The notes beneath the pieces were generated by a model. It was not told the origin of the DNA. It saw nothing but the letters and a program-made list of their open reading frames with translations, and searched no databases. From positions 36,594 to 100,593 of IMG/VR virus record IMGVR_UViG_3300020810_001160: a stretch of 64,000 bases of DNA, one strand, 5' to 3'. Within the stretch, counting starts at the first letter, position 1, and the number at the start of each line of letters is the position of its first letter. The position numbers and the translations under genes are program-made. The DNA is from a virus. Below are positions 30,322-56,185 of this stretch, in pieces.

Positions 30322-30333
30322 GAATAGAATTCA

Positions 30334-31208: not shown

Positions 31209-31237
31209 TTGACTTCTACTCAAAAATCAGTTATAAT
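31209..31237 (+). promoter_or_regulatory. Sigma-70-type promoter at the island start
   Basis: TTGACT (31209-31214), a 17-base spacer and a perfect TATAAT (31232-31237) lie in the 49-base gap after the last tail gene. The predicted transcription start is about 6-8 bases downstream, just before the ATG at 31250. This is a near-consensus host-type (early) promoter, in contrast to the late-type boxes upstream, so the island is probably transcribed early and apart from the virion genes. Confidence 0.72.
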
Positions 31238-31249
31238 ATCTAATATATT

Positions 31250-31585
31250 ATGAATAATTCCTTAACCGAATCGCTCGAATTCGCAAATCGAATGAAACAG
31301 TACAATAACCAATTACGGTTGTTAAAAGAAAAATGTCTTGAGAACAATGTCTATTACACTCAAGGACATCAGTTCACAATCGATCTTGCCTTAATAAACT
31401 ATTGTTTAACATTCATTAATGTGAAAAAAACAAACGAAGCAATATTTTTAGATGATTATAATCTGCCTGTCAAAATTACAGATGTTCAAAATTTTTATGA
31501 CAACATTATTGATCAATATCAAAATAATCTCAACTCGTATTTTGTCGAATACAATCAATTGGTGAAAGACAAAGGTGAAATATAA
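31250..31585 (+). CDS. Hypothetical protein, first gene of the island
   Basis: A 111-residue soluble, helical protein rich in Asn, Gln and Leu ('LEFANRMKQYNNQLRLLKEKCLENN', 'NFYDNIIDQYQNNLNSYFVEYNQLVKDK'), probably a small helical bundle or coiled coil. I do not recognise the family. There is no clear Shine-Dalgarno; the start lies only about 12 bases after the promoter -10 box, so the leader is very short. Two bases separate it from the glycosyltransferase-like gene downstream, so it is in the same operon. It could be a structural leftover of the tail block (a linker or assembly helper), or an island protein. Confidence 0.55.
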   Translation: MNNSLTESLEFANRMKQYNNQLRLLKEKCLENNVYYTQGHQFTIDLALINYCLTFINVKKTNEAIFLDDYNLPVKITDVQNFYDNIIDQYQNNLNSYFVEYNQLVKDKGEI

Positions 31586-31587
31586 CA

Positions 31588-32397
31588 ATGTCAAAAGGTG
31601 TACTACTGTTTGCTCACAACAACAGCACTGTGGACTATGTTAAGCAGGCTGACTTTTGTGCTAAACAGATTCAAAAACATTTAAAACTACCAGTGTGTCT
31701 GATCACTTCCAATGAAGTGTGTGAACAAAATAATTTTAATCATGTTATTTTTGTAAAGTCTCCAGATCAAATACAAAAACGTTCATACTATGATGGCAAC
31801 GAGCATCACAAAGACTTCTGGAATAACCAGTCGAGACCAGATGCTTATAAGTTAACCCCATATGAAGAAACTATTGTGATGGATACTGATTATATTGTAT
31901 CCAACGACAGTTTGAACAAAGTGTTTGACAGTAAAGAAGATTTTTTAATTAATTACAAAGCACAACACGTAGATTTTAATTCTAAATACACAGACGAGAT
32001 GAAATACGTGAGTGACACAGGTATTGAAATGTGCTGGGCAACAGTTTTTTATTTTAAAAAAACTGAAAGAACACGAATACTATTTGAATTAATAGATCAC
32101 ATAAGGAACGAATGGGAATTTTATAGATTCAAATATCAAATCACAAACACAAATTATAGAAACGATTTTGCTTTTGCGATTGCTTTACACATGATGAATG
32201 GTTTTGCCGAATCCCAATGGCCCAAACAACTGCCTTGTAAGTTATTTTATGTTACTGATAAAGATGTTGTAGAATCATACAGTAATAATCAATGGCATTT
32301 CACATTGCAAAGCGGTTTAAAATGTAAATTACAAGATATGAATATTCATATCATGAATAAAATAGGTTTAAACAAAATAATAGAAGCACATGAATAA
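31588..32397 (+). CDS. Glycosyltransferase-like protein (GT-A fold, DxD), copy 1
   Basis: A 269-residue protein opening with 'KGVLLFAHNNSTVDYVKQADFCAKQIQKHL', like the nucleotide-binding first strand and helix of GT-A glycosyltransferases. A hydrophobic strand ends in 'VMDTDYIV' (about 97-103), a DxD-type metal/nucleotide-sugar site. It is a clear paralogue of the next gene (same opening 'KGIVLFVQQNSKTDYLKQA' and 'VLDVDMLV'). There is no membrane anchor, so it is cytoplasmic. The family resembles GT8-like and other uncharacterised phage glycosyltransferases. Donor and acceptor are unknown. It overlaps the next start by 8 bases. The glycosyltransferase class is inferred from motif spacing only. 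Confidence 0.6.
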   Translation: MSKGVLLFAHNNSTVDYVKQADFCAKQIQKHLKLPVCLITSNEVCEQNNFNHVIFVKSPDQIQKRSYYDGNEHHKDFWNNQSRPDAYKLTPYEETIVMDTDYIVSNDSLNKVFDSKEDFLINYKAQHVDFNSKYTDEMKYVSDTGIEMCWATVFYFKKTERTRILFELIDHIRNEWEFYRFKYQITNTNYRNDFAFAIALHMMNGFAESQWPKQLPCKLFYVTDKDVVESYSNNQWHFTLQSGLKCKLQDMNIHIMNKIGLNKIIEAHE

Positions 32398-33211
32398 AGG
32401 AATTGTATTATTTGTCCAACAAAACAGTAAGACTGATTATTTAAAACAGGCTGTGGCGTGTGCTTTGAGTATTAAAAAATTTAATCCAACAGAAAAAGTT
32501 TGTTTGATTACAGATATAGAAGTACCTAGCAAATATCAATCTGTGTTTGATGTTATAAAAGATATTCCAGGAGAGGATTTCGCTAAAGCAAGTGATTGGA
32601 AAGTGGAAAATAGATGTAAAATTTATGATATTGCTCCATTTCAAAAAAATATTGTGCTTGATGTTGATATGTTGGTGTTAGAAAATATAGAACATTGGTG
32701 GACAGCATTAGAAAACTATGAATTATATTACACAAACAAAGTTAGAACATATAGAAATGAATGGGTAACCAGCAATTATTATAGAAAAGTTTTTGAAGAG
32801 AATCAGTTGCCAAACGTATATTGTGGTTTTCATTACTTTATCAAGAATGAAAACAATAAAAAGTTTTATGATACTCTTAAAGAAGTTGTCACAAACTACA
32901 AACAGTTTGCTAATAAATTTACAATACATCACACACAAAAATGGTGCAGTATGGATGTGGCAACTGCTATTGTAGTGAAAATGTTAAACAAGGAACACCA
33001 AGTATTTTCAAATCACAAATTTTTAACATTTACACATATGAAGCCTAAATGTTTAAATTGGAAAAGTTCTGTAAATCATTGGAACGAACAATTAGATTAT
33101 ATGATGAATAAAAATTGTGAACTATTTGTAGGTAATATTAAACAACAAGGAATTTTTCATTATGTTGAAGACAGTTTTTTAACAGAAGAAATTATGGAGT
33201 GTTTAAAATGA
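32390..33211 (+). CDS. Glycosyltransferase-like protein (GT-A fold, DxD), copy 2
   Basis: A 273-residue tandem paralogue of the preceding gene. The DxD site is 'VLDVDMLV' (about 89-96). The C-terminal half has several conserved aromatic and histidine positions ('YCGFHYFIKNENNKKFYDTLKEV', 'KWCSMDVATAIVVKML', 'FTHMKPKCLNW'), consistent with acceptor binding. It overlaps both neighbours by a few bases, so all three are translationally coupled. The pair is likely to act on related substrates or as a heterodimer; the sequence cannot tell which. Confidence 0.6.
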   Translation: MNKGIVLFVQQNSKTDYLKQAVACALSIKKFNPTEKVCLITDIEVPSKYQSVFDVIKDIPGEDFAKASDWKVENRCKIYDIAPFQKNIVLDVDMLVLENIEHWWTALENYELYYTNKVRTYRNEWVTSNYYRKVFEENQLPNVYCGFHYFIKNENNKKFYDTLKEVVTNYKQFANKFTIHHTQKWCSMDVATAIVVKMLNKEHQVFSNHKFLTFTHMKPKCLNWKSSVNHWNEQLDYMMNKNCELFVGNIKQQGIFHYVEDSFLTEEIMECLK

Positions 33212-33804
33212 ACATCAGACCACCTTTAACATTTGATGTAATTAAACCTGATGTAACACATTACATACATTTTAACCCTGAAACGGGTATACCGACTGGG
33301 TGTAGTGTTGAACAAAAAGGACACAGTGTTAAAATATCTGAAGAACTTGCCATACAAATTAAAAAAGGATACAAAAATTTATTAGATTATAGAGTGAAAT
33401 TAGTAAACAACGAGTTTGTAGTTGAAACAAAAAATGCTTTACAAAATGTTACTCATAATCAAACGCACAGTAATTTGATAGAAAATAGAACAGTATATGA
33501 AATTAAAAAGAATAATAAAGATTCTTGTATAAGATTTGTATTAGATCTCAAACAAAAAGTTTGGAATGTAAGCATAGATACAGAACTAAAAAACAGTCTA
33601 AAAAATACGTTAAAGTCTCTAGATACTGTATATAAATTTTTTACAACATCAACAGACAATTCAGCATTGTTAGACTATGAATTTCTAATAGATATCAAAG
33701 AATTAATGTCTAAAGAAACATTAACTATGCCACATCAATCAGACAGTATACCAAGATTGTTTTGTAGAAAAGTTTACAACTATTCATATGAGGTACACCA
33801 ATGA
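33208..33804 (+). CDS. Hypothetical island protein (198 aa)
   Basis: The ATG at 33208 was chosen over an in-frame GTG at 33199 because GGAG at 33196-33199 is eight bases upstream of it and because it overlaps the previous stop as ATGA. The N-terminus has 'PPLTFDVIKPDVTHYIHFNPETGIPTGCS'; the rest alternates beta strands and lysine-rich helices. There is no cysteine motif, signal peptide or membrane segment, and I do not recognise the family. The N-terminal beta unit would suit a small virion- or carbohydrate-binding domain. It lies between two pairs of glycosyltransferase-like genes, so a partner role is possible but unproven. Confidence 0.55.
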   Translation: MNIRPPLTFDVIKPDVTHYIHFNPETGIPTGCSVEQKGHSVKISEELAIQIKKGYKNLLDYRVKLVNNEFVVETKNALQNVTHNQTHSNLIENRTVYEIKKNNKDSCIRFVLDLKQKVWNVSIDTELKNSLKNTLKSLDTVYKFFTTSTDNSALLDYEFLIDIKELMSKETLTMPHQSDSIPRLFCRKVYNYSYEVHQ

Positions 33805-34700
33805 TATTAAAAACATCAGATATGGATTTTATATTTTTAAGTTTAGATGAACCTAATGCAGATAAAAACTTTGCTGATCTAAAACGCAAAGTTCCATGGG
33901 CAAAACGTGTACACGGAGTAAAAGGATTTGATACTGCTCATAAACGTGCGGCTGAAATATCTGAATCAGAAAGATTTATAACTGTCGATGCTGATACGCA
34001 GATAGATGAAGAGTTTTTAAATGTGTTAGTAGACCTTAATTCGTTGGGAGTTGATGACACTTATCAATTTAGTTGGTGTGGTAGAATTGATCTTAATGGT
34101 TTAAAGTATGGAAATGGCAGTTTAAAATGCTGGACAAAATCATTTGTAAAAGATATGAAAACACACGAAAACCATGACGGTAAAAATAAAAACGTGATTG
34201 AATTTTGTCATTTTCCTAATTACTATCAATTTAATGAAAACTATTCTATCAGTTATATTGACGGATCACCTTATCAGGCTTGGAGAGCAGGATTCCGTGA
34301 AGGTGTTAAAATGAGTTTAGACAAAAATGTAAGACTGCCATTAAAACAGTTATGGTGGCAAAATTACCAAAGACTATTAGTTTGGATGTCAGTGGGCATG
34401 GATAATCCATTAGGAGTATATGCTATTCACGGAGCGAGAACAGGCTGTTATCTAACAACTTGTACAGATTGGGATTTTACTCAAGCAAATGAATATAGAT
34501 ATTTTGAAAAATATTGGAGATTTGAACTGCATGATGATAAAACCACAGATTTTTATAAAGATAGTATTGAACTAGGTAGGAAAATTACTGCCGAGCATGA
34601 AATTGAATTGTCTATTGAACCATTGAGTGCTGAACAAAGTAAATTTTTTAAACAAGTATATCTTAATACACCAAGAATATGGAAAAGGAGAACGCTGTAA
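33801..34700 (+). CDS. Glycosyltransferase-like protein, second pair, copy 1
   Basis: A 299-residue protein. 'DFIFLSLDEPNADKNFADLKRKVPWAKRVHGVKGFDTAHKRAAEIS' followed by 'RFITVDADTQI' (D62, D64) gives the order nucleotide-binding strand, helix, DxD site of GT-A enzymes. The latter half is aromatic-rich ('YIDGSPYQAWRAGFREGVKMS', 'LLVWMSVGMDNPLGVYAIHGAR'). The next gene repeats the whole plan (EPLADHNYKTL, VVDGDAV, AWKSAFRECVKLS, YGDFAMDGAQ). Similar proteins occur among uncharacterised phage genes; I infer a glycosyltransferase. It overlaps the genes on both sides (ATGA and TAATG). Confidence 0.58.
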   Translation: MILKTSDMDFIFLSLDEPNADKNFADLKRKVPWAKRVHGVKGFDTAHKRAAEISESERFITVDADTQIDEEFLNVLVDLNSLGVDDTYQFSWCGRIDLNGLKYGNGSLKCWTKSFVKDMKTHENHDGKNKNVIEFCHFPNYYQFNENYSISYIDGSPYQAWRAGFREGVKMSLDKNVRLPLKQLWWQNYQRLLVWMSVGMDNPLGVYAIHGARTGCYLTTCTDWDFTQANEYRYFEKYWRFELHDDKTTDFYKDSIELGRKITAEHEIELSIEPLSAEQSKFFKQVYLNTPRIWKRRTL

Positions 34701-35398
34701 TGTATGATATTGTGTTCATAAGTTATAATGAGCCATTGGCTGATCACAATTACAAAACATTGTGCGAACGTTTTCCTATTGCCCAAAGAGTTAATAACGT
34801 TAAAGGAATTCATCAAGCACATATAGAAGCCGCCAAGTTAGCATTAACAAAAATGTTTTGGGTGGTGGATGGAGATGCTGTGATAGAAAAAGATTTTATG
34901 TTTAATTATGCAGTGCCAGAAAAAGATTTAACAGCAGTTCATGTGTGGCGCAGTCGCAATCCAATCAACGATTTACAGTATGGATATGGTGGTGTTAAAT
35001 TATTACCAAGACGTATGACACTAGAAATGAACACAGATACCACAGACATGACAACCAGCATATCAAATAGATTTAGAGCAATGGAACAAGTTTCAAACAT
35101 CACAGCATTCAATTCAGATCCTTTTAGTGCTTGGAAATCAGCATTCAGAGAATGTGTTAAGTTGAGCAGTCGAGTGATTGATAGACAAGAAGATCAAGAA
35201 ACAGAAAAAAGATTGGATGCTTGGTGTACTCTTGGAGCAAATAGACCATACGGAGATTTTGCTATGGACGGTGCTCAGCAAGGTAAAAAATATGGTGAAC
35301 AGAACAAAAACAATCCTGCACAATTAAAGTTGATCAACGACTTCGATTGGTTGCAGAAATATTTCAAGGAGACGTGCAGTGTCAGTGAATATTACTAA
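34700..35398 (+). CDS. Glycosyltransferase-like protein, second pair, copy 2
   Basis: A 232-residue paralogue of the preceding gene. The start at 34700 is chosen because it forms a TAATG overlap with the upstream stop and has GGAG (34687-34690) nine bases ahead; an upstream in-frame ATG at 34679 would add seven residues inside the previous gene. The D-x-D site is 'VVDGDAV' (D57, D59). Conserved blocks shared with its partner are 'FISYNEPLADHNYKTL', 'AWKSAFRECVKLSSR' and 'LGANRPYGDFAMDGAQQG'. It is shorter than the partner because the C-terminal acceptor region is trimmed. Its 3' end overlaps the first radical-SAM gene. Confidence 0.58.
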   Translation: MYDIVFISYNEPLADHNYKTLCERFPIAQRVNNVKGIHQAHIEAAKLALTKMFWVVDGDAVIEKDFMFNYAVPEKDLTAVHVWRSRNPINDLQYGYGGVKLLPRRMTLEMNTDTTDMTTSISNRFRAMEQVSNITAFNSDPFSAWKSAFRECVKLSSRVIDRQEDQETEKRLDAWCTLGANRPYGDFAMDGAQQGKKYGEQNKNNPAQLKLINDFDWLQKYFKETCSVSEYY

Positions 35399-36464
35399 TA
35401 TACCTTTTGATAACATTGTGCGTTTTGGACAACAAACTATGCTTGATAGAAAATTGTTCAATGTGAGTTGGATATTGGGCAGATTCTGTAATTATAATTG
35501 TTCGTATTGTTGGCCATATGCTCACAGTAAAAATGTTGATCACAGACCATTACAGGTTTACAAAAATACTATTGATGAAATAAAATCCCAAGCAAGAGCA
35601 AACGGGTTTGATAGTTTTCATTTCAGTTTTTCAGGAGGAGAGCCCACAGCATACAAAAGATTTTTATCTGTTATTGAGCATTATGCCAACGACTCTATTG
35701 CAACATATCAAAGTTTACACATGACTACAAATGCTTCACCAGGATTCAAATGGTGGAACATTTGGCTCAAAGCCACAGAACGTCTTGCACGTAGAAGCAT
35801 CACAGCCAGTTTCCATCATGAGTTTGCTGACGAAGATGTATTTGGAGACAAATTACTAATGTTACAGGACTCAGCAGTATACGTCACAATTAATCAAGTG
35901 ATGGTACCACACTTATTTGATGAACTGTATGAACGATGTGATAGGTTGCATAAACGTGGTATAAACGTAACTTTAAAACCACAAAGCAATGAATCAGCCA
36001 GTGAAATAGTAGATGGATACAATGATGAACAAATCAAATTGATGAGAACAGGATTTCCTTTGAAATATAATGGAGTTTCGGCACAACAAATTCAGTTGAC
36101 TGACCACAAAGGTACAAGTTATAATATAGATCAAGCAGAACGTTTTAATGCTTTTGGATTCAATAAGTTTAAAGGCTGGAATTGTCATGCTGGATATCAA
36201 AGTTGTATCATAAGAGAACCAGGTGGAGAAATAAAAAGAGCATACAGTTGTCATGATGAACCGTTAGGAACTATAGACAAAGGTTTTAAATTGTTTTCTA
36301 AACCGAATGCTTGTATCACGCCATCTTGTGTTAGTTCTGCAGACAGTAAAATTCCTAAGTTTAGAAAAATGGACTTTTTAGAAAATGCTTTACAAGAACA
36401 AGAAATGTTGGAAATTAGTAGGCAACAATCTGTAAGAAATAAAAAGGAAAGAGCAAATGTATAA
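35379..36464 (+). CDS. Radical SAM protein (CX3CX2C), SPASM-like C-terminus
   Basis: A 361-residue radical-SAM enzyme. The [4Fe-4S] motif is C37-x3-C41-x2-C44 (CNYNCSYC), followed by 'HFSFSGGEPTAYKRF' (the GGEP SAM-binding motif). The C-terminal 'GWNCHAGYQSCIIREPGGEIKRAYSC' and 'CITPSCVSS' place further cysteines for an auxiliary cluster, as in SPASM/twitch enzymes. Two other proteins of this island (41358-42254 and 42244-43206) share this C-terminal pattern, so they are paralogues. The start is GTG at 35379 with AAGGAG eight bases upstream. The family includes peptide-maturing and sugar-modifying enzymes, so the reaction cannot be named. It overlaps the next gene by eight bases. Confidence 0.85.
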   Translation: MSVNITNIPFDNIVRFGQQTMLDRKLFNVSWILGRFCNYNCSYCWPYAHSKNVDHRPLQVYKNTIDEIKSQARANGFDSFHFSFSGGEPTAYKRFLSVIEHYANDSIATYQSLHMTTNASPGFKWWNIWLKATERLARRSITASFHHEFADEDVFGDKLLMLQDSAVYVTINQVMVPHLFDELYERCDRLHKRGINVTLKPQSNESASEIVDGYNDEQIKLMRTGFPLKYNGVSAQQIQLTDHKGTSYNIDQAERFNAFGFNKFKGWNCHAGYQSCIIREPGGEIKRAYSCHDEPLGTIDKGFKLFSKPNACITPSCVSSADSKIPKFRKMDFLENALQEQEMLEISRQQSVRNKKERANV

Positions 36465-37443
36465 GTTAACAGACATAAGAGATGTACACTTGGAAATAAC
36501 CAGCAAGTGTCAAGCCAAGTGTCCTATGTGTCCTCGTAGAATACAAGGTGGACCGTTAAATCCTTTTATACATTTGGATGAAATCACATTGGATAGATTC
36601 AAACAATGGTTTCCTGATAATTTTATACAGCAATTGGACAGTATGTTTATGTGTGGTAACTTGGGAGATCCTATTGTGAGCAAAGACACACTGGAAATAT
36701 ATCAACACCTAAGAACTGTAAACCCTAAAATAAGATTGGCGATGCACACCAACGGCAGTGCTAGAGACACAGACTGGTGGACTAAACTAGCAAAATTACA
36801 GGTAAAAGTAACTTTTGGTATAGACGGACTTGCAGACACTAATCATTTATATCGTGTATCCACAGACTTTGAAAAAATTATCGATAATGCCAAAGCATTT
36901 ATACAAGCAGGCGGGTTTGCCAAATGGCATATGTTGGTTTTCAAACACAATGAACATCAGGTGGAAACAGCAGAACAGATGTCAAAAGATTTAGGATTTA
37001 AAATGTTCACCACAAAACACACTTCAAGATTTAAAGGAGATTACCTACAAGTGATAGATGAGCAAGGTCGTCCCACACACAGATTGGAACCCACGCAAAA
37101 AAGTCGAGATATGATTCCATTGGTAGAACAATCACAGCAAGAAACAACACCTACCATTGTGTGCAAAGCAGTTAAGAACAAACAGATTTATGTGAGTGCT
37201 TGTGGTAATGTGTCACCTTGTTGTTGGTTGGATATGGAGTGGATACCACCCATGCAGGAGAGCAGAATAGACTATATGACTAGAATTGGCGAGTTTCCGA
37301 ATTTAAATACAAGTAGTCTAAAAGAGATATTTGAAAACGGTTATTTTGACAAGATTGAACAAACATGGAGTCACTCACCGCTACAAGAATGTGGCAAACA
37401 GTGTGGATCATTTGACAAACTAGGAGCTCAATTTGAGAATTAA
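36457..37443 (+). CDS. Radical SAM protein with SPASM domain
   Basis: A 328-residue radical-SAM enzyme. The cluster motif is C18-x3-C22-x2-C25 (CQAKCPMC) in 'LEITSKCQAKCPMCPRR'. The GGEP motif is replaced by 'MCGNLGDP', a known SPASM-subfamily variation. A C-terminal SPASM-type domain is present: 'CGNVSPCCWLD' near 250 and 'LQECGKQCGSFDKLG' at the end. SPASM proteins carry one or two extra [4Fe-4S] clusters and act on peptides, proteins or small molecules. The gene sits in the main plus-strand operon and overlaps both neighbours. The substrate is unknown. Confidence 0.85.
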   Translation: MYKLTDIRDVHLEITSKCQAKCPMCPRRIQGGPLNPFIHLDEITLDRFKQWFPDNFIQQLDSMFMCGNLGDPIVSKDTLEIYQHLRTVNPKIRLAMHTNGSARDTDWWTKLAKLQVKVTFGIDGLADTNHLYRVSTDFEKIIDNAKAFIQAGGFAKWHMLVFKHNEHQVETAEQMSKDLGFKMFTTKHTSRFKGDYLQVIDEQGRPTHRLEPTQKSRDMIPLVEQSQQETTPTIVCKAVKNKQIYVSACGNVSPCCWLDMEWIPPMQESRIDYMTRIGEFPNLNTSSLKEIFENGYFDKIEQTWSHSPLQECGKQCGSFDKLGAQFEN

Positions 37444-38047
37444 TATAAGAGATGTACTGTATTGGATGGATGCCATCAGACAATCTGATGACAGATATCG
37501 TACATTAGAAAGTTTCTGGAAAGGGCAGATCAACAGCAAAGTATGGCTGATTGACAACTTAAAGAATTATTTTCAAAGAGTACCGTACGAGATATTGATA
37601 TGTGGGGGTTGGAATGGAGTAATGTCAACATTATTGTTTAATAGTGAATTGGATATAGCAAGAGTAACATCAATGGATAAAGATCCTACTTGTGAGTCCA
37701 TAGCAAATACAATGAACAAAGAGTATGAAATACGCAGTCAATTTAAAGCAATCACTATGGATATGTTAGAGTATAGAAACTATCACAAACACAATTTGAT
37801 CATCAACACTGCTTGTGAGCATATGTCAAAAGAAGAATATGCCGAATGGATTTCATTACTGCCAAACAACACAAAAATTATAATACAGAGCAATAACTAT
37901 TTTGATCACAAAGAACACGTGAATTGTAAAGCAAGTTTAGAAGAATTTGAAAAAGATTGCGGATTAACTGTAAAATTTTCTGCTGAATTACCAACAGAAA
38001 AATACAAACGATTTATGATAATAGGAGCAAAAAATGATAATGACTAA
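37433..38047 (+). CDS. Class I SAM-dependent methyltransferase-like protein
   Basis: A 204-residue protein with a Rossmann-type SAM-binding pattern: 'YEILICGGWNGVMSTLLF' (motif I, about 50-67), 'RVTSMDKDPTCESIA' (motif II, acidic residue for the ribose) and 'HNLIINTACEHMSKEEYAEWISLLPNN' (motif IV/post-motif region). The target is unknown; small-molecule or sugar methylation would fit the neighbourhood. The start is TTG at 37433, supported by GGAG (37422-37425) seven bases upstream and by overlap with the previous stop; the first in-frame ATG is 33 bases later, at 37466. Confidence is moderate because motif I is slightly unusual (CGGWNG). Confidence 0.62.
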   Translation: MRINIRDVLYWMDAIRQSDDRYRTLESFWKGQINSKVWLIDNLKNYFQRVPYEILICGGWNGVMSTLLFNSELDIARVTSMDKDPTCESIANTMNKEYEIRSQFKAITMDMLEYRNYHKHNLIINTACEHMSKEEYAEWISLLPNNTKIIIQSNNYFDHKEHVNCKASLEEFEKDCGLTVKFSAELPTEKYKRFMIIGAKNDND

Positions 38048-46040: not shown

Positions 46041-46054
46041 TTTATGGACAAAGA

Positions 46055-46086: not shown

Positions 46087-46105
46087 TTACGATAAGTATA
46101 GTAAT

Positions 46106-47393: not shown

Positions 47394-47922
47394 GTTTGTA
47401 GGAAACTGTAATCATATCCTTAACTGGAATGAAATTATAAATGAAGTGAAAGATCAAGAAGGTAAATGTGCCTGCAAATATCTTCCGGTTTCAGAAGTTC
47501 CAGAATTAAAAGAAATTAATGATGCACTGGGAAATTATTGTGAAACATCTATAGAATGGATCAATTATTATCCTGGCAAAGAGTTTTCAATGGAAGTAGC
47601 AGAGAAGTTTGGCGAGTTTGTTGGAGCACCAAAAATGATTAAATGTTGGATATCTAAAGTTTATCCAGGTAAAACTGCTCCATGGCATTGGGATTGGGAC
47701 GTGGATTGGGAAAAGTATGTAGCACAAGGAAATCCTGTTAGATTCACAGCAATGATTAATAAGCCTGCACCAGGTCAGGTTTTTATAGTAGGTGATCAAG
47801 CACTTTACAATGAAAAACAAGGAGATGTTCATAAGTGGCCAGACTTTAAATCATATCATGGCGGAACCAATTGTGGACTTGAACCTAAATTTAATTTTAA
47901 TTACTTGGCATACGCAGAATGA
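47386..47922 (+). CDS. Cupin/dioxygenase-like protein, tandem copy 1
   Basis: A 178-residue protein with a 2-oxoglutarate dioxygenase-like metal site: 'YPGKTAPWHWDWDVDW' (H101-x-D103) and 'SYHGGTNCGLEPKFNFNYLAY' (distal H158; the usual arginine is here a lysine in 'EPKF'). Between them 'RFTAMINKPAPGQVFIVGDQALYNEKQGDVHKWP' gives the jelly-roll strands. The next gene has the same plan in 'APWHWDTQD' and 'WHAGSNCGQRPKYIFNFF'. Proteins of this kind are annotated as 2OG-Fe(II) oxygenases in cyanophages. The Lys in place of Arg may mean altered co-substrate binding. Overlaps the next gene by four bases. Confidence 0.62.
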   Translation: MLEFVGNCNHILNWNEIINEVKDQEGKCACKYLPVSEVPELKEINDALGNYCETSIEWINYYPGKEFSMEVAEKFGEFVGAPKMIKCWISKVYPGKTAPWHWDWDVDWEKYVAQGNPVRFTAMINKPAPGQVFIVGDQALYNEKQGDVHKWPDFKSYHGGTNCGLEPKFNFNYLAYAE

Positions 47923-48473
47923 AACAATACATAGGCAATTGCAGTGACGTGATAGACTGGACATCGGTTGTAGAATCTATAAAAAGTTCTAAACCAGCAT
48001 ATCAAGGACCAAGACACACCAAGGATGATGATCTACCAGGCATTAAAGAAATAAGTGAAGCGTGGAATAAAGCAGGGTATAAGTTAGCATCAGAAGGCGG
48101 AACTGTGGGTTGGGATATGTGTATACCTGAAACAAACTTTGATAAGAGTGTTGTGGACAAATTTGCTGATTATGTTGGTGTTGATTCATTAAGTTGTTGG
48201 GTAAGTGTGATACATCAAGGTTATCATGCTCCGTGGCACTGGGACACACAAGATAATGAAGAAGAATTACGAAAATTGAATAACATTGAAAGATTTCATG
48301 TACACATGGAAGACACACATCCAGGACACATATTAATTGTGGAAGATGAATTATACTATAATGCCAAAGCAGGTGATGTGTACAAATGGCCAGACAGAAA
48401 TGCTTGGCACGCCGGATCTAATTGTGGTCAAAGACCCAAATACATTTTTAATTTCTTTGGAACTAAAAGATGA
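47919..48473 (+). CDS. Cupin/dioxygenase-like protein, tandem copy 2
   Basis: A 184-residue paralogue of the preceding gene. H107-x-D109 ('APWHWDTQD') and distal H164 in 'AWHAGSNCGQRPKY' form the likely Fe(II) site, and 'NCGQRPKY' supplies the arginine for oxoglutarate, which the first copy lacks. The opening repeats the neighbour ('QYIGNCSDVIDWTSVVESIKSSK' compared with 'EFVGNCNHILNWNEIINEVKDQE'). One gene may have been copied and then have diverged in substrate. Overlaps the next start by four bases. The substrate is unknown. Confidence 0.65.
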   Translation: MKQYIGNCSDVIDWTSVVESIKSSKPAYQGPRHTKDDDLPGIKEISEAWNKAGYKLASEGGTVGWDMCIPETNFDKSVVDKFADYVGVDSLSCWVSVIHQGYHAPWHWDTQDNEEELRKLNNIERFHVHMEDTHPGHILIVEDELYYNAKAGDVYKWPDRNAWHAGSNCGQRPKYIFNFFGTKR

Positions 48474-49045
48474 ACAAAACATTAAAGTTTGATTACTTTC
48501 CTTTATTGAGATCAAATTATGATGCCAACGAATTGGTCACAGACGGTTTATTAGTGGATCAATTGAACGTGCATTGGAATGACAACAACATTTTTAAAGA
48601 CATTCAGTCCAGCAAAGAAACTGCCGAAAAAGGTTCCATCAATAGAACTATAGATATAGAAGTTAAAGATAGCAATAAAATGTTGTTACAAAACAAACAA
48701 GTTTGGAATGAAGACAGTATAGAACTTAAGGCTGAAATTGATTTAACATCAAAAGGAAATGATATATGGAACTTAAAGTTTGTGTATAACTTAACAACCT
48801 GTGCTGATCAAGATTATGAAAATTTTAACAAAAAGTTTGGCATTAATGATGAACTATTTCATTTCAAACTTAACGGAGAAGCCTTGATATACAATGAAGA
48901 AATTAGAGGCGGTAAAAATATGACAGCACAAAAAGATTTCTATTGGAGAGGGAAAAATCCTATATTGTTCGAACTAGAAGAATATGGCACAGGGATAGAT
49001 AGAGACAGTAGATTTATTCAAATAGTGAGATTTACAATTATATGA
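48470..49045 (+). CDS. Hypothetical beta-rich island protein
   Basis: A 191-residue protein with no recognised family. The N-terminus is 'LKFDYFPLLRSNYDANELVTDGLLVDQLN'. The rest alternates short beta strands with Lys/Asp/Asn-rich turns ('NRTIDIEVKDSNKMLLQNK', 'IELKAEIDLTSKGNDIWNLKFVYN'), like a single jelly-roll or lipocalin-type domain. There are no cysteines in conserved patterns, no signal peptide and no catalytic motif. It is placed between dioxygenase copies and an SDR gene in one operon. A small binding or substrate-carrier protein is possible; I cannot support more. Confidence 0.5.
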   Translation: MNKTLKFDYFPLLRSNYDANELVTDGLLVDQLNVHWNDNNIFKDIQSSKETAEKGSINRTIDIEVKDSNKMLLQNKQVWNEDSIELKAEIDLTSKGNDIWNLKFVYNLTTCADQDYENFNKKFGINDELFHFKLNGEALIYNEEIRGGKNMTAQKDFYWRGKNPILFELEEYGTGIDRDSRFIQIVRFTII

Positions 49046-49596
49046 AAATAGTAATAACAGGCAGTACATCACCAATGGGTAAAGCAGTGTACGAACATTA
49101 TTCAAAAGAACATGAATGCTTAGGAGTCAGCAGAAGCACAGGGTATGATTTAACTAACGCAGAAGATCAAAACAGATTGGTATCGGAGACATTGGCACGT
49201 GATGTATTTTTGAATATAGCCCACATTGGCACTGCTCAGTCTACGTTGTTATTGAAATTAAAACAACGGTGGTCTCCAGAAGCACCGCTGAAAAAAGTTA
49301 TCACAATAGGATCACTGGCAACCAAAGTACCCAAGAAATTATTAGATCAGGTGGGTATTGATAAACAATATCTCAGAGACAAACATCACATAGATGCCGT
49401 ACACAATTCGTTAGCCAATGAAATGCCTTTTGGTTCTCAATTACAATTCAGTCTTGTAAGAGTACTCAACTACGGAGAAAAAACTGGAGAACGATCTGGT
49501 GAACCCACTTGTACAGTTAAAGATATTGTACGTACCACTGATTATTTGATTAATGAACCTATGTATATTTCTACTCTAGACGTTCGACGTTTTTAA
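49042..49596 (+). CDS. Short-chain dehydrogenase/reductase (SDR)
   Basis: A 184-residue NAD(P)-dependent SDR-like protein. 'KIVITGSTSPMGKAVYEHY' is the Rossmann nucleotide-binding loop (TGxxxxMG, residues 6-13); 'VFLNIAHIGTAQSTL' corresponds to the NNAG-type strand; 'VITIGSLATKVP' supplies the catalytic serine region; 'KQYLRDKHHIDAVH' gives Y-x3-K near residue 110. It is shorter than classical SDRs (about 250), so the C-terminal substrate lobe is small. The gene at 54062-54652 on the minus strand has the same size and plan. It may oxidise or reduce a sugar or small-molecule intermediate. It converges with the next gene, the stops overlapping by four bases. Confidence 0.72.
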   Translation: MKIVITGSTSPMGKAVYEHYSKEHECLGVSRSTGYDLTNAEDQNRLVSETLARDVFLNIAHIGTAQSTLLLKLKQRWSPEAPLKKVITIGSLATKVPKKLLDQVGIDKQYLRDKHHIDAVHNSLANEMPFGSQLQFSLVRVLNYGEKTGERSGEPTCTVKDIVRTTDYLINEPMYISTLDVRRF

Positions 49597-50219
49597 AATA
49601 CAACATCTTTAAATAGAACAAGTGCGTCCTCAAATTGTATATGAGTATTGTCTTCTATTGTTAGTAAATGATAACTTAACGTCCAACGCGGTTCACTGGT
49701 ATTAAAATTATGTGTCGAATGTAATTGTCCTACATTAAGCAAACTAGGATGATTAATCACCGCTTCATGTACCACATCACAGTCTTCCACTTCCGCATGA
49801 TAAAATTTATCTACAGGAATATCGACATCTATGTCTTTAAAATAAACCTCTTTGTGATAATCTGTGTTATCTCGCTCTGTTTGTATTAGTGATTCGTCTT
49901 TAACTTTGTACCATCTTACAATACTGTCTTGTGGTCCCCATGTAAAATTAATGTTTGATGAATTGTTCAACGTAGGAGCGTCATTGTGCATTGGTAACCC
50001 GCCACCATTAGGACCATTATAAAATGCTTCACACACATTTGAAGGTTTTAATCCAAACCCCTTTAACCAATCAACAAATCTTTCGTCCCAATGTTCTCTT
50101 GTAGCACACCATTCATGCCAATTTTCACCACGCATATTTTCTGGCTTTGATTTGAAACAGTCTGGAAACTTATGCTCAAATGGCAATTTTACATAACGGT
50201 GATATATGTTTTTATTCAT
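49593..50219 (-). CDS. Fe(II)/2-oxoglutarate dioxygenase-like, tandem copy 1
   Basis: A 208-residue protein with 'GGGLPMHNDAPTLNNSSNINFTWGPQ' (H78-x-D80) and 'LLNVGQLHSTHNFNTSEPRWTLSYHL' (distal His and the oxoglutarate arginine in 'PRWTLSY'). This is the metal triad plus arginine of aspartyl/asparaginyl-hydroxylase-like dioxygenases. The opening 'YHRYVKLPFEHKFPDCF' is repeated in the next gene. It is transcribed toward the SDR gene and ends inside its stop. The substrate is unknown, as for the other dioxygenases of the island. Confidence 0.68.
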   Translation of the reverse strand: MNKNIYHRYVKLPFEHKFPDCFKSKPENMRGENWHEWCATREHWDERFVDWLKGFGLKPSNVCEAFYNGPNGGGLPMHNDAPTLNNSSNINFTWGPQDSIVRWYKVKDESLIQTERDNTDYHKEVYFKDIDVDIPVDKFYHAEVEDCDVVHEAVINHPSLLNVGQLHSTHNFNTSEPRWTLSYHLLTIEDNTHIQFEDALVLFKDVVF

Positions 50220-50823
50220 ATGTAACTTCCTTGAATATATTTAATGCTTTTTCAAACTGTAAATGTTTATAATCTTTATCAAGTAAAAAATAACACAACG
50301 ACCAACGCCCTTGTACGGGGTCTGGATTGTATGTAGAGTGCAGTTGTCCAACATTAATCAAACTGGGTTGATTTATGACTTTTTCACATACTAATTCACA
50401 TTGATCTTCACTTTCGCAAATTAATTCTTTGTGTACACCGTTGCTATCAAAATGATCCACAATGTCTGGTTTAACTGTTTCTGTTATGTGTGAACTATCT
50501 GTGATATCCGTTTTTAAATATGATTCATCTTTAACATTCCACCATCTTGTGGTGCTGGTATCCGGACCCCAAGTAAAATTAATTTTTGTAGCATTGGTTA
50601 TTGTGCTGGTATCATTGTGTATGTGCACCTTTCCTTGATTAGGAGGAGTATAGATACCTTCTGTAACATTAGAAACAATTACTTCAAAGGATTCAATCCA
50701 ATCTATTACTGATTGATCTAGATCCGTTTTGGGAACAAATATCACTTCCGATTGAGAAGGTTCATAGGAAAAACAAGATGGCTTTTTGTGTTCCTTAGGT
50801 ATTTTTACATATCTATGATACAT
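50212..50823 (-). CDS. Fe(II)/2-oxoglutarate dioxygenase-like, tandem copy 2
   Basis: A 203-residue paralogue of the preceding gene. 'GKVHIHNDTSTITNATKINFTWGPD' gives H69-x-D71, and 'LINVGQLHSTYNPDPVQGRWSLCYFLL' gives the distal His and the arginine. All metal ligands are kept. Openings match ('YHRYVKIPKEHKKPSCF'). The stop and the next start overlap by eight bases. This is one of three tandem duplications in the island, so repeated oxidation steps on similar positions, or on a family of substrates, are plausible. Confidence 0.68.
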   Translation of the reverse strand: MYHRYVKIPKEHKKPSCFSYEPSQSEVIFVPKTDLDQSVIDWIESFEVIVSNVTEGIYTPPNQGKVHIHNDTSTITNATKINFTWGPDTSTTRWWNVKDESYLKTDITDSSHITETVKPDIVDHFDSNGVHKELICESEDQCELVCEKVINQPSLINVGQLHSTYNPDPVQGRWSLCYFLLDKDYKHLQFEKALNIFKEVTYE

Positions 50824-50824
50824 T

Positions 50825-51631
50825 TTAATAATTGGATAAATGATCTATGCCTATCTGCTTTCTGAACTTGTCTGTGAATACACAATCAATACGTAGTCCG
50901 TATTCTTGTTCATTGCTGACATCACCACCATGCCAATCTTGATCATTCCAAAATGCCGCGTTGGCATTGATGTAGGTTTTGTTTTTTGCTTCAGGATTCC
51001 AAATATAGAATCCTCTTTTTGTGCTGTGCCTAATGTGTATGAATTCATTGCGATGATCAGTATAACCTTGATCATCACCGTGTTTGCCATCAAGGTCTCT
51101 GTGTTCAAATGGTTTACCATCATGTTCGCAGTGGAAAAATATCACTCTACCTATGCTTTCAATGATGCCCGTGTTTACTAATTCTTTGATCCAAGCAACC
51201 ACACCTGGAAAATATTTTGCTTCTTCTGTGATGTTTCGTTCAGCATTTCTATGATCCCAATCTCCTTCTTCCCAAAGGAAATAATATATGTAAGGATCAT
51301 TGGCTCCTAACACAGACTTCAAATATCTTGTGAATTGATTTCTGGTTTTGTAATCTTTAATATTGTTGTACAAGTCGTCACCATTTTTTCTAATAGGATG
51401 ATCCTGAGGCAGTGCTTTGTATTCTTCCAAAGCCATATAAATTGGTTTCCAATTCAGAGTGTAACTCATGTCTTTAGGATCAAATCCTGGTGACATCCAG
51501 GTGCCTTCTTTGGCATATTCTCGTGCGAGAGCAAAACCTCTACATATTTCTGGATGTAGTTGTTTGAAACTGTCTATGTCTATGTGGTCATCTAGACTGA
51601 TGTATGGTTTACCGCCAATTCCTCTAATCAT
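50825..51631 (-). CDS. Dioxygenase-like protein (HxD, jelly roll)
   Basis: A 268-residue protein when started at the ATG at 51631; an ATG at 51739 would run into the divergent gene at 51671 and the added N-terminal stretch looks non-coding. 'VIFFHCEHDGKPFEHRDLDGKHGD' supplies the H-x-x-D/H-x-D site, then 'EFIHIRHSTKRGFYIWNPEAKNKTYINANAAFWNDQDWHGGD' the second strand half and distal His, and 'YGLRIDCVF' the arginine. This fits a 2-oxoglutarate dioxygenase of a type seen in marine phages. The N-terminal 110 residues are helical with no motif. Start choice is inferred, as no clear SD was seen. Promoter elements in the 40-base divergent gap are weak. Confidence 0.58.
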   Translation of the reverse strand: MIRGIGGKPYISLDDHIDIDSFKQLHPEICRGFALAREYAKEGTWMSPGFDPKDMSYTLNWKPIYMALEEYKALPQDHPIRKNGDDLYNNIKDYKTRNQFTRYLKSVLGANDPYIYYFLWEEGDWDHRNAERNITEEAKYFPGVVAWIKELVNTGIIESIGRVIFFHCEHDGKPFEHRDLDGKHGDDQGYTDHRNEFIHIRHSTKRGFYIWNPEAKNKTYINANAAFWNDQDWHGGDVSNEQEYGLRIDCVFTDKFRKQIGIDHLSNY

Positions 51632-51670
51632 CAAAGTATTTACTTTTAAATACAGTACAAATAAATTATC

Positions 51671-52243
51671 ATGGCTTTTAAATTGGTACCATATTCTGAC
51701 GACTTGAATCTTGAAACATTTTATCAAACAGCCAAACAAAAAGGATTTGTCAACAACTCAACCAAAAAAATGTTGGTAGATTCTCTGTCCCGAGAAGACA
51801 GATATCAGGTTTGGATGCTGTTGTGGAATGACAGAGTGATTGGATCCACAGCGGCACATTCATTTCCTGAAATGGGTCCTGACAGTTATCGTATTGCTTG
51901 TCGTATCTGCACATTCACTGATGAACTGCCGAAAGAGTATCAAGTGGTGCGTACTAGAGACACCATAAGAAATCATCAAACTACCACGCAACAATTTTTT
52001 CAACCAGCAGGCATACGTTGGGCAGGTGAAAATAAAAATTACTATGTGACCACAAATGAAAACGCAGAAGGCACACAACGACTGGTACATTCTATTGTGG
52101 CTCCTACTCTGGAAAGTGTGGGTGTTTATACCAGAGTGAAAGATATGGATTACAGAGGTACACTTCAAACTGTGTGGCGTGTGAACGCTGATGTGTATTT
52201 TAAACAACTTGAACAAGTAAAACAATGGCCCACTTATGAGTGA
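51671..52243 (+). CDS. Possible GNAT-type acyltransferase
   Basis: A 190-residue protein. 'EDRYQVWMLLWNDRVIGSTAAHSF' resembles the beta-2/beta-4 strands of GNAT acetyltransferases, and 'ACRICTFTDELP' and 'VRTRDTIRNHQTTTQQFF' could be the acetyl-CoA-binding region, but the Q/R-x-x-G-x-G/A loop is not clear. It is a probable member of a conserved marine-phage family annotated only as hypothetical. The start at 51671 lies 40 bases from the divergent gene's ATG. It overlaps the next gene by eight bases. The functional call is weak. Confidence 0.4.
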   Translation: MAFKLVPYSDDLNLETFYQTAKQKGFVNNSTKKMLVDSLSREDRYQVWMLLWNDRVIGSTAAHSFPEMGPDSYRIACRICTFTDELPKEYQVVRTRDTIRNHQTTTQQFFQPAGIRWAGENKNYYVTTNENAEGTQRLVHSIVAPTLESVGVYTRVKDMDYRGTLQTVWRVNADVYFKQLEQVKQWPTYE

Positions 52244-52922
52244 TTTCAAATACTATTACAACAATGTGCCAGGCAAAGGACTGTGTAGAAACAATTTAAT
52301 TTATACCAGTCTAATCAACGAAGATGCCACAGAGTTTTGTATGTGGTTTCACAATGATTCAGAATATCATAAAGGTCACAATGAAGTGGTGGATCCTGCA
52401 CTGATGGAAATGAAGTACCATAGAGAAAAAGATTTCTTACTGTGGTTGGATATTGATCACAAACAGTTGATCCCTCGCACCACACGTTTTGATCCAGATG
52501 ATCAAAAGATATATTTTGAAATACAAGGTGTAGATTTTTGGGAACAAAGCCATGGCAAAACATATGCTGACGTATTGCCTAATTGGCAAGAGCAGATGCT
52601 GTACATAATGGAAACACACAAACAGTTGGGCATATACAAATACAGTCTACATCCTAGCAGTTATTTTGTTATTGATGGAGAATTAAGAACAATCAATTAC
52701 TTCTTTGCTTACAGAAAGGACGAAACACCCATCACAGTACAAGAACACATGAGTCATATTTCCAAAGAAAGACAAAAAGAACTGTTGCCTAAAATGAAAC
52801 AGATGGGTATAGAAATGGACAATACATATCCATTTGATCAACTACAGATACTGTGTCTGGAAAGTTTTAGAAATGTATACCCAGACAGTTTTATTGACAA
52901 GGCAATTTCACTCTATAAGTAA
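52236..52922 (+). CDS. Kinase-like fold protein, copy 2
   Basis: A 228-residue paralogue of the 46773 gene. Shared features are an N-terminal 'YYYNNVPGKGLCRNNLIYTSLI' (compare 'FYKFKGGLAVTNMLYEPL'), 'PNWQEQMLYIMETHKQLGIYKYSLHPSSYFVIDGELRTINYFFAYR' (compare 'PNWQDKIKAIKDDL...IYKINMYPHTFYFDDEDNAYIMDLYG'). The resemblance to small kinase folds is only local, and the usual catalytic Asp is missing in this copy. The two copies sit in different sub-operons of the island, which suggests a shared role. Function is unknown. Confidence 0.45.
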   Translation: MSDFKYYYNNVPGKGLCRNNLIYTSLINEDATEFCMWFHNDSEYHKGHNEVVDPALMEMKYHREKDFLLWLDIDHKQLIPRTTRFDPDDQKIYFEIQGVDFWEQSHGKTYADVLPNWQEQMLYIMETHKQLGIYKYSLHPSSYFVIDGELRTINYFFAYRKDETPITVQEHMSHISKERQKELLPKMKQMGIEMDNTYPFDQLQILCLESFRNVYPDSFIDKAISLYK

Positions 52923-52926
52923 TAGT

Positions 52927-54069
52927 ATGCAGGATACAAAAACCACAAGCCTATGCCACATATGTTATCGTCACTGTGAAGCAGAACGAGTGACCAAAAC
53001 TGATGGAGTATATTTGATAAAGACTTGTCCAGAGCACGGAACTTCAAGTTATTTGGTAGAACAAGACATAGATTTCTATAATTCATTGATTTATGATAAA
53101 TCAGGATATTCAATACCTCAAGGCATAATGATTGAAGTTACAGATAAATGTAATTTGAATTGCCCACACTGTTATCATAAACCAGACAACAAAACACAAG
53201 ATAAACCTGTAGAACAAATACTTTACCAAATAGAACATAGATTTAATGCTGACGCAGGTGCTGTGATATTAGCAGGTGCTGAACCAACTGTGAGAAAAGA
53301 TTTACCTGAATTAATTGTACAAATTAAAAAATTACTTAAAAAATTAGGAAGACCTGAAGATGTGTGTATTCTTACAAATGGTGTAAAACTCTCCGATAGA
53401 GCATGGGTTAAAAAAATTGCTGAAGCAGGCACAAACATGGTTATGATAGGTATGAATCATCACTCTTATCAAGGTAAGAAAGTACATGAGAAACAATTAA
53501 AAGGAATTGACAATTGTATTGCAGAAGGAATATTTGTCTACTATGTTGGATATACGTTGGAACACATTGACCATATGGAAGAAGTACTGGAAGAAATACA
53601 AGCATTAGGTAATCGTGCTTGGCAATATAGAATTAGAGCAGGTTCAGATATTGGCAGAGCACCAGATGAACCTCAATTCTTTTTGAGCAGACACGTTGCT
53701 AAGATAAAAGAAATTTGTGATCGCAAAGGTTGGACTTGGGAAAAGAAACCTGCTGATGATAATTTATATCACTTCATGGTAAACATAAATGGTATCACTC
53801 ATAGAATTATACAATGGAGTGATCCTAAAACAATTGATATGGAACAATTACAATGTGGTCCTTGGTGTGATTTTGTACCCGGCAAACCTGTTACAAATTT
53901 CTTACATCAAATCATGTTGCGTGATGCTGTGGTCAATGAAGGCCAGACTTTGCATGACACTGTGCCAAACAAATACTTGTTTCAACCTGAAAATGTTGAC
54001 TACGAAGTTACAGAGTGGACATTTAAGAGTTGGGACGATTCCAAACAAAAGCAGAAAAAAACTATTTAG
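52927..54069 (+). CDS. Radical SAM protein with N-terminal CxxC/CPEHG domain (Tes/MJ0619-like)
   Basis: A 380-residue radical-SAM enzyme. The N-terminal domain has C10, C13 and C17, then 'GVYLIKTCPEHG' (C34), the zinc- or cluster-binding leader typical of the MJ0619/Tes-like radical-SAM group. The main motif is C75-x3-C79-x2-C82 (CNLNCPHC), with 'ILAGAEPTVRKDLPELI' in place of GGEP. C-terminal 'CGPWCDFVPG' may hold another cluster. Members of this group join lipid chains (tetraether synthase) or methylate pterins; others are uncharacterised. ATG 52927 starts just before the first Cys motif; an in-frame ATG at 52834 lies inside the previous gene. It converges with the next gene. Confidence 0.8.
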   Translation: MQDTKTTSLCHICYRHCEAERVTKTDGVYLIKTCPEHGTSSYLVEQDIDFYNSLIYDKSGYSIPQGIMIEVTDKCNLNCPHCYHKPDNKTQDKPVEQILYQIEHRFNADAGAVILAGAEPTVRKDLPELIVQIKKLLKKLGRPEDVCILTNGVKLSDRAWVKKIAEAGTNMVMIGMNHHSYQGKKVHEKQLKGIDNCIAEGIFVYYVGYTLEHIDHMEEVLEEIQALGNRAWQYRIRAGSDIGRAPDEPQFFLSRHVAKIKEICDRKGWTWEKKPADDNLYHFMVNINGITHRIIQWSDPKTIDMEQLQCGPWCDFVPGKPVTNFLHQIMLRDAVVNEGQTLHDTVPNKYLFQPENVDYEVTEWTFKSWDDSKQKQKKTI

Positions 54070-54652
54070 GTTTGTAATCTAATTGTGTAGCATCAACAGT
54101 TACACTCTGAAAATACATAGTTTCACACAGTAACATTTTAATGATCCATTTGGAAAGTTCTTTAGGATCTATTTTATTTCCTTGTAGGTACTCACTAATC
54201 TGTGTGTCAGTGCATCCTAATATAACATTTAATATGTGTGGTCCATACACATTGATACGGTTTTCTATAATTCTATTTTGTTCTTTTTTAGCATTGCCAT
54301 AATTTTCCATAAAATCATTTGTATCTGAATTATTGTAACAAGACTTAGAACTTAAATTTAATATTTTTTTATCTTTATCGCCTTCCCAAACATTGATCAT
54401 TAATTTTAACATTTCTGTTTGTCCATTAAATTGATCTATCTCTGTCATAGGAAGATCACCGTCGGGCCAAGCACAATTGATGAATATGTCTGCGTGTTTG
54501 GATTGTTCTAAAATACTCTGTCTTGATTCGGCAATGCTGATATCAAATCCATTACTTCGGGAGAAACCTTGTACATCATGACCCGATTGAATAAGATCGT
54601 TATATAAACACTTGCCTATGCCTTTGGAGTGTCCAGTTATTCGGACTATCAT
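54062..54652 (-). CDS. Short-chain dehydrogenase/reductase (SDR), second copy
   Basis: A 196-residue SDR. 'IVRITGHSKGIGKCLYNDLI' is the classical TGxxxGIG cofactor loop (residues 6-13); 'ADIFINCAWPDGDLPMTEI' corresponds to the NNAG strand; 'ILNLSSKSC' holds the catalytic serine and 'NYGNAKKEQNRII' the Y-x3-K pair. It is better conserved than the SDR at 49042. It is the last island gene and ends within the radical-SAM stop. Four bases upstream of its start is the stop of the fibre-like gene, so it may be transcribed with it as well. Confidence 0.75.
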   Translation of the reverse strand: MIVRITGHSKGIGKCLYNDLIQSGHDVQGFSRSNGFDISIAESRQSILEQSKHADIFINCAWPDGDLPMTEIDQFNGQTEMLKLMINVWEGDKDKKILNLSSKSCYNNSDTNDFMENYGNAKKEQNRIIENRINVYGPHILNVILGCTDTQISEYLQGNKIDPKELSKWIIKMLLCETMYFQSVTVDATQLDYKPK

Positions 54653-56177: not shown

Positions 56178-56185
56178 TTGATGCT

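Follow-up and report, generated by a model that had tools for sequence, protein, structure and literature searches.

A glycosyltransferase module and a radical SAM/oxygenase module behind the tail-fibre genes of a jumbo phage relative

Radical SAM-rich phage loci and the island studied here

Described phages with many genes for radical S-adenosylmethionine (rSAM) enzymes include the Campylobacter phages CP220 and CPt10, which encode 11–12 of them, five in an interchangeable cluster, with block-wise acquisition (PMC2853527). A T4-like marine genome encodes 12 (PMC5332604), and the host recognition clusters (HRCs) of pelagimyophages combine rSAM cassettes with glycosyltransferases, for which the proposed target is the host O-chain (PMC7029224). 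We found no description of the product of any rSAM-rich phage block in the open-access literature searched. Here we analyse an island of 23.4 kb in a marine phage, IMG/VR virus record IMGVR_UViG_3300020810_001160 (100,593 bases), at positions 31209–54652 of a stretch of 64,000 nucleotides referred to as the window. The island encodes about 30 enzymes, all soluble proteins, directly behind tail-fibre genes, and it consists of two modules: module A, a set of glycosyltransferase genes that belongs to the fibre locus and is anchored on the fibre gene fib2, and module B, a movable block of rSAM enzymes, oxygenases, and associated proteins.

The closest described systems share parts of this plan. 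Common to the CP220/CPt10 cassettes and the island is the gain of many rSAM genes as a block, but the Campylobacter cluster includes an amidinotransferase (PMC2853527), and Campylobacter phage CP21 shows only remote rSAM similarity to three of the island's rSAM proteins, R1, R4, and R5. The pelagimyophage HRCs also form a hypervariable island in the fibre region, with GT8-type glycosyltransferases and rSAM cassettes that come and go, but they belong to T4-like SAR11 phages and are without a described conserved core of rSAM enzymes and 2-oxoglutarate (2OG) oxygenases (PMC7029224). Jumbo-cyanophage polysaccharide and secondary-metabolite clusters likewise bring glycosyltransferases together with 2OG oxygenases, cupins, and methyltransferases, whereas their core is of the carbamoyltransferase/halogenase kind and the word "radical" is absent from the paper (PMC7824862). 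An earlier sequence-only reading of the window knew of no described phage pathway with this gene content. Phages rich in rSAM genes and fibre-locus cassettes do precede it, but three features appear new against the open-access papers searched: a two-module architecture conserved among jumbo phages, a block in which rSAM, 2OG, and kinase-fold proteins travel together, and a core shared with Bdellovibrionota. Kin of the island are found on hundreds of virus contigs and in some genomes of Bdellovibrionota, which resemble predatory bacteria.

That reading had set the island in the frame of T4-like cyanophages, which the structural proteins do not bear out. The major capsid protein is 67–70% identical to those of Sinorhizobium phage Phosso (469 kb), Vibrio phage 2.275.O, and the PA5oct/Paride group, the nearest relatives of baseplate wedge protein gp6 are in Phosso and Atu_ph07, and a single open reading frame (ORF) at window 9299–23950, 4,883 aa long, has homologues among the giant virion structural proteins of Phosso, PA5oct, and Atu_ph07. 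By these protein similarities the phage is a jumbo myophage relative of PA5oct, Atu_ph07, and Phosso; identity as a T4-like cyanophage or SAR11 phage was rejected, since the capsid and baseplate point to jumbo phages. Because the capsid, gp6, the giant ORF, and kin on IMG/VR contigs of 364 kb and 270 kb (capsids 81–83% identical to this one) all point to jumbo phages, the record is probably a fragment of a jumbo genome. Fibre genes at 24590–31200 immediately precede the island, whose content differs among relatives. Like the HRCs of pelagimyophages and cyanomyophages, the locus is a hypervariable island set within the structural genes and associated with tail fibres, but its phage lies outside their T4-like group, the capsid and gp6 being of jumbo type.

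A fibre-locked and a movable module

Module A is made up of fib2-hypA-GTa-GTb-hypB-GTc-GTd, fixed in place behind the fibre genes, and module B of rSAM, oxygenase, kinase-fold, GNAT, PP-loop, short-chain dehydrogenase (SDR), and methyltransferase-like proteins (genes listed below). The two come apart in the 364-kb and 270-kb contigs, where only fib2-hypA-GTa-GTb-hypB-GTc-GTd and a single twitch rSAM gene are found at the fibre locus, followed by right-flank genes homologous to those at window 55848–63815; in the 270-kb contig the proteins at the fib2 and hypB positions are too divergent for profiles. Module B stands about 70–110 kb away in these contigs, with 16–17 families together: R1, R2, R3tw, R4, R6tw, PPlp, AspH1, AspH2, DoxA, DoxB or DoxD, DoxE, KinA, KinB, GNAT, MT2, and SDR1. 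We therefore abandoned the view of the island as a single unit tied to the fibre. The cohesion of module B at a distance from the fibre genes is our best argument for one co-functioning pathway, which we consider highly probable.

The genes, with window coordinates, strand, and the evidence for each label, are as follows.

fib2, 30334..31200, +: virion fibre-locus protein, last fibre gene and anchor of module A; hidden Markov model (HMM) match to PA5oct gp360
hypA, 31250..31585, +: small soluble protein of module A, conserved between fib2 and GTa
GTa, 31588..32397, +: GT8/glycogenin-like glycosyltransferase; profile A11 against glycogenin, E 7e-5
GTb, 32390..33211, +: GTa paralogue (hhalign 99.7%), glycogenin-like
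hypB, 33199..33804, +: module A, function unassigned; fixed position between GTb and GTc
GTc, 33801..34700, +: GT-A-like glycosyltransferase; hhalign 100% to GTd
GTd, 34679..35398, +: GT-A-fold glycosyltransferase; AlphaFold predicted local distance difference test (pLDDT) 91, Foldseek RmlT/WrtF E 2e-5
R1, 35379..36464, +: rSAM, module B core; PF04055 E 4e-13
R2, 36457..37443, +: rSAM with C-terminal SPASM; PF04055 and PF13186
MT1, 37433..38047, +: methyltransferase-like (sequence pattern only); conserved partner of R1/R2
AspH1, 38034..38738, +: Asp/Asn beta-hydroxylase family 2OG oxygenase; PF05118 E 1e-8
MT2, 38722..40110, +: two-domain protein, methyltransferase-like at the C terminus (pattern only); conserved pair with AspH1
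R3tw, 40097..41365, +: N-terminal twitch rSAM; NF033640
R4, 41358..42254, +: rSAM; PF04055 E 3e-15
R5, 42244..43206, −: rSAM related to R1/R4; PF04055, hhalign 100%
R6tw, 43203..44621, −: N-terminal twitch rSAM; NF033640
SGNH, 44608..45246, −: SGNH-hydrolase-like; PF13472 only, E 0.005
PPlp, 45219..46040, −: PP-loop ATPase with a Zn-ligand-like CGxCxWC tail; invariant SGGADS and CGKCFWC
AspH2, 46106..46780, +: beta-hydroxylase-like 2OG oxygenase; match to 7v4f
KinA, 46749..47393, +: protein-kinase-fold protein; KinB paralogue, hhalign 100%
DoxA, 47386..47922, +: HxD...H oxygenase-like; invariant residues
DoxB, 47919..48473, +: DoxA paralogue; invariant residues
hypC, 48470..49045, +: function unassigned, kept in some relatives
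SDR1, 49042..49596, +: SDR-like; PF04321 E 0.011
DoxC, 49593..50219, −: JmjC/cupin-type oxygenase-like; 42% to DoxD
DoxD, 50212..50823, −: JmjC/cupin-type oxygenase-like; AlphaFold model
DoxE, 50825..51628, −: HxD...H protein, likely start near 51628; invariant H176-D178-H233
GNAT, 51671..52243, +: putative GNAT-like; conserved adjoining KinB
KinB, 52236..52922, +: protein-kinase-fold protein with degenerate catalytic motifs; TTK kinase profile E 5e-5
R7, 52927..54069, +: accessory rSAM with HMPTM zinc ribbon; PF04055 E 3e-20, PF23545 E 2e-13
SDR2, 54062..54652, −: SDR-like; PF01370 E 1.5e-4

The dense, overlapping packing described earlier is borne out: 24 of the 29 junctions between island genes overlap, the largest gap is 65 nt, and noncoding sequence totals 114 nt in 23.4 kb. 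Related stretches in IMG/VR were gathered with R6tw (110) or R4 (362) as anchor and, as a non-rSAM anchor, with GTd, the most widespread gene of the island, whose viral relatives number at least 596 (at least 596 related stretches, with 65 nonredundant loci in the gene-order set). Because each set was selected by homology to one anchor and includes fragments, fractions drawn from them are only descriptive. Whichever anchor was used, the same core recurs, fib2-hypA-GTa-GTb-hypB-GTc-GTd followed by R1, R2, MT1, and R6tw in variable order and orientation. R3tw and R4 adjoin in nearly all relatives, and AspH1-MT2 travel as a pair. Some rSAM gene is present in 46 of 50 GTd-anchored loci with enough sequence, and, flank permitting, GTc lies upstream (35/42) and a twitch rSAM gene downstream (32/39). 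Among 80 R3tw loci of at least 18 kb, with redundant copies retained, R2 occurs in 79, R4 and R6tw in 76 each, MT1 in 74, AspH2 in 71, and PPlp in 69. Viral loci, both jumbo contigs, and one Bdellovibrionales contig, there beside pheT, share the order fib2-hypA-GTa-GTb-(hypB)-GTc, and fib2 lies upstream of hypA-GTa wherever it was detected. GTc/GTd stand 24.5–30 kb downstream of gp6, in the same orientation, in all nine records holding gp6.

Every gene tested has a median ratio of nonsynonymous to synonymous substitution rates (dN/dS) of 0.06–0.16, which indicates purifying selection. The sequence-only reading had proposed a joint pathway, to be doubted if homologous loci proved to be randomly reshuffled without a core or mostly decayed. 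We found neither, and the conserved core, the selection on its genes, and the roughly 16 families together after relocation support the proposal. Related virus records carry 5 to 22 rSAM genes each. The densest found, with 22 and 21 rSAM domains, are two records of about 72 kb each, G012 (L139) and G013 (L153).

Enzyme families and cellular counterparts

PF04055 matches exactly seven places in the whole record, all inside the island and all above the curated cut-off, and the CxxxCxxC motif is present in 480 of 480 nonredundant relatives of the seven families, bearing out the seven rSAM genes first noticed in the sequence. R3tw and R6tw are full-length members of the twitch rSAM family NF033640 (330 and 401 bits; curated cut-off 170), and R6tw is the most conserved protein of the island, at 67–86% identity to ten diverse loci. 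R1, R4, and R5 form one paralogous family by hhalign. R7 has only partial TrsS/Tes similarity. A viperin-like antiviral role of R1/R4/R5 was rejected, the best scores being 40–58 bits against a cut-off of 180 for NF038283 (prokaryotic viperin).

The seven dioxygenase-like proteins keep an HxD...H pattern in 136 of 136 nonredundant relatives (by a loose regular expression), and fold or profile support extends to four of them, AspH1, AspH2, DoxC, and DoxD. The AspH2 profile matches the solved beta-hydroxylase 7v4f (E 1.2e-15), and residues H78/D80/H122/R132 are invariant. DoxC and DoxD are one family, with the JmjC hydroxylases NO66/MINA53 as structural matches of its model (pLDDT 90; E 1e-4); a profile match to Tako8 (E 0.005 over 41 residues) was disregarded. 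DoxA and DoxB form another family, placed here mainly by invariant HxD...H residues together with a weak link to AspH2 (hhalign 79–90%), and DoxE is assigned only by its invariant H-x-D and H. In sequence and predicted structure, DoxD, AspH1, and AspH2 resemble known protein or side-chain hydroxylase families.

All four DxD glycosyltransferase-like genes found earlier are supported as well, GTc/GTd as GT-A-like and GTa/GTb as GT8/glycogenin-like with an invariant DxD. Other early labels held in part. The two methyltransferase-like proteins MT1 and MT2 retain their sequence pattern and conserved partners but match no profile; the PP-loop ATPase keeps its invariant motifs and has a weak QueC-like PHROG match; and the SGNH hydrolase and the two SDRs show weak matches only. 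Sequence profiles from the PDB gave no significant match for DoxA/B, DoxE, MT1, MT2, PPlp, or GTd. KinA and KinB, left unclassified at first, have a protein-kinase fold. The HRD/DFG positions are degenerate in both (HPS/NYF in KinB), and the two are possible pseudokinases or small-molecule kinases.

Part of the island recurs in bacteria. Scanned with the R6tw alignment, about 85,000 species genomes yielded 23 loci, mostly Bdellovibrionota metagenome-assembled genomes (MAGs) at 43–52% identity. There R1 (about 50% identity), R2, R6tw, GTd/GTc, and MT1 cluster again, the homologous core being about 33–58% identical overall, and the core adjoins ordinary chromosomal genes (uvrD, an HPPD-type gene, and pheT). 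One Bdellovibrionales contig (L186/L197) keeps the order fib2-hypA-GTa-GTb-x-GTc and also holds pheT. These loci are known from MAGs only, in which binning errors occur, and R6tw is present in only 11 genomes of a 192-genome Bdellovibrionota sample. In some Bdellovibrionota MAGs a chromosomal stretch of about 28 kb is home to roughly a dozen twitch rSAM genes or more (L193/L194 at G019:C1:746000-774000, L195/L196, and L200), accompanied by genes like AspH1, MT2, PPlp, and SDR1; these islands seem to be an extensive and so far unexplored cellular equivalent.

Viral and Bdellovibrionota rows are intermixed in the tree, with at least four label changes, so that the core was probably transferred between viruses and Bdellovibrionota more than once. 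Two cellular rows, a Thermoplasmata MAG contig (L170) and a Rickettsiales MED657 MAG contig (L183/L198/L199), were rejected as cellular copies, being probably misbinned phage DNA because both group with viral rows.

Possible targets of the locus

The substrate, chemistry, and purpose of the locus we infer from this evidence. Our best explanation, with a probability of roughly 0.42, is that the two modules together form a modification system of the fibre locus and give a putatively hypermodified virion fibre protein; a virion protein as the main target is a similarly tentative proposal. Ahead of assembly, module A, with fib2, hypA, and four cytosolic glycosyltransferases, would most likely glycosylate a fibre protein of the virion, Fib2 being the probable acceptor. 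Module B would tailor acceptor side chains or attached sugars, the rSAM enzymes making changes at unactivated C–H bonds (epimerisation, methylation, cross-link, or oxidation) and the oxygenases hydroxylating, and the outcome would be a hypermodified, diversifiable fibre surface. Such cytosolic modification agrees with the solubility of the enzymes, the constant association with a virion protein, the glycogenin-like transferases, and the resemblance of the oxygenases to protein hydroxylases. More doubtful is the broader proposal that marine jumbo phages and Bdellovibrionota carry a movable rSAM/2OG pathway which, in concert with the fibre-locked glycosyltransferases, hypermodifies fibre proteins of virions and perhaps of bacteria; this would be a way of modifying virion proteins by radical chemistry that has not been described before. 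Were fibres indeed modified, the receptor-binding surfaces of phages would bear chemistry invisible in sequence.

Several points weigh against a fibre target. Because module B can stand far from the fibre genes, its adjacency in the window is no proof of a fibre substrate. Oxygenase families of this kind include small-molecule members, GT8 enzymes also build lipopolysaccharide (LPS), and the labels of MT1, MT2, GNAT, SGNH, and DoxE are weak. The record of PA5oct gp360, the Fib2 homologue (HMM E 9.7e-35), bears the note electrospray ionisation tandem mass spectrometry (ESI-MS/MS), which speaks for the fibre link but is silent about modification.

Cultured phages with the block (Atu_ph07, Phosso) and without it (PA5oct/Paride) at the homologous locus make the modification target testable. 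PA5oct has, in order, the giant virion protein, gp357 (homologue of window 23975), gp358, gp359, gp360, and then small genes; the glycosyltransferase/rSAM block is absent from its fibre locus, as it is from the same arrangement in Paride. Atu_ph07 and Phosso carry three to four rSAM genes at the equivalent locus, like the island directly behind the giant virion protein and fibre genes, and the Atu_ph07 block adjoins a JmjC cupin. Their rSAM subfamilies are, however, only remotely related to those of the island, and no match to GTa-GTd, to R3tw/R4/R6tw orthologues, or to the kinase-fold pair was found. In both alphaproteobacterial jumbo phages the block (L319 in Phosso, L320 in Atu_ph07) comes directly after the fibre gene and runs JmjC cupin (identified in Atu_ph07), rSAM, two unknowns, rSAM, small unknown, unknown, rSAM. 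Isolated phages yielded no close homologues of GTd, PPlp, or fib2, and only remote matches for R6tw and R5.

The main rival to fibre modification is remodelling of host-envelope glycans, in which the glycosyltransferases and the rSAM/oxygenase tailoring would change the sugars of the LPS core or O-chain in infected cells, for instance to block superinfection. Glycosyltransferases with rSAM cassettes in the hypervariable fibre locus of pelagimyophages have been interpreted in this way (PMC7029224), GT8, which GTa/GTb resemble, is the commonest family in those clusters, jumbo-cyanophage polysaccharide clusters have also been proposed (PMC7824862), and GT2 genes adjoin the core in one Bdellovibrionota locus. 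Set against this, module A keeps its tie to fib2-hypA, membrane segments are absent from all island proteins (hydropathy window <1.6), neither an O-antigen polymerase nor a Gtr-like membrane enzyme was seen in the island, and five records, including the 364-kb and 270-kb relatives, lack a Polysacc_synt flippase (PF01943) and an NTP_transferase (PF00483). The locus is thus without the flippase and sugar-nucleotide synthesis of an autonomous O-antigen or capsule cluster; the lack of membrane proteins, flippase, and sugar nucleotidyltransferase speaks against a full polysaccharide pathway but leaves room for modification of a glycan made by the host. We regard envelope remodelling as less likely than a fibre target.

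Module B might instead make a soluble small molecule unrelated to the fibre (a modified sugar, amino acid, or nucleoside serving as cofactor, toxin, or signal). The block is separable from the fibre locus, its enzyme classes resemble tailoring pathways, and for jumbo cyanophages a secondary-metabolite cluster that includes 2OG oxygenases has been proposed by Iyer et al. (PMC7824862). Yet island proteins include no nonribosomal peptide synthetase, polyketide synthase, or exporter, which would leave a cytosolic product without a visible exit, and the Bdellovibrionota copies again adjoin GTd/GTc. This account seems to us somewhat less likely than envelope remodelling.

Far less probable again is a pathway for a ribosomally synthesized and post-translationally modified peptide (RiPP) encoded nearby and matured by the rSAM/SPASM/twitch enzymes and hydroxylases. 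Such rSAM enzymes are characteristic tailors of RiPPs, and hydroxylases of the AspH type take part in RiPP routes, but no island rSAM reached the cut-off of any RiPP-maturase family, no protease or transporter was found, and the tight packing leaves no room for a free-standing small ORF, hypA itself being a possible precursor. DNA hypermodification, for example by a 7-deazaguanine route, is the least probable: PPlp is weakly QueC-like and R4 weakly QueE-like (PHROG), and PTPS occurs in three related records, but the gene is found in only 2 of 104 module-B loci, five records including the 364-kb contig hold no TGT/DpdA-type transglycosylase (PF01702; a divergent DpdA could escape), and the surroundings of the island are fibre genes rather than replication genes. 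The PTPS/QueD-like gene lies near module B only in loci L146 and L137, and PTPS is also present in the 364-kb and 270-kb contigs.

A different type of locus is found in Vibrio phage K566 (L316; 254,938 nt; isolated from a seawater/oyster mix), which has, close to a pagP-like gene, several genes resembling twitch rSAM. Bordering the island itself on the right, window 54657–55784 (−) encodes a protein with an Mtd_N (major tropism determinant N-terminal) domain.

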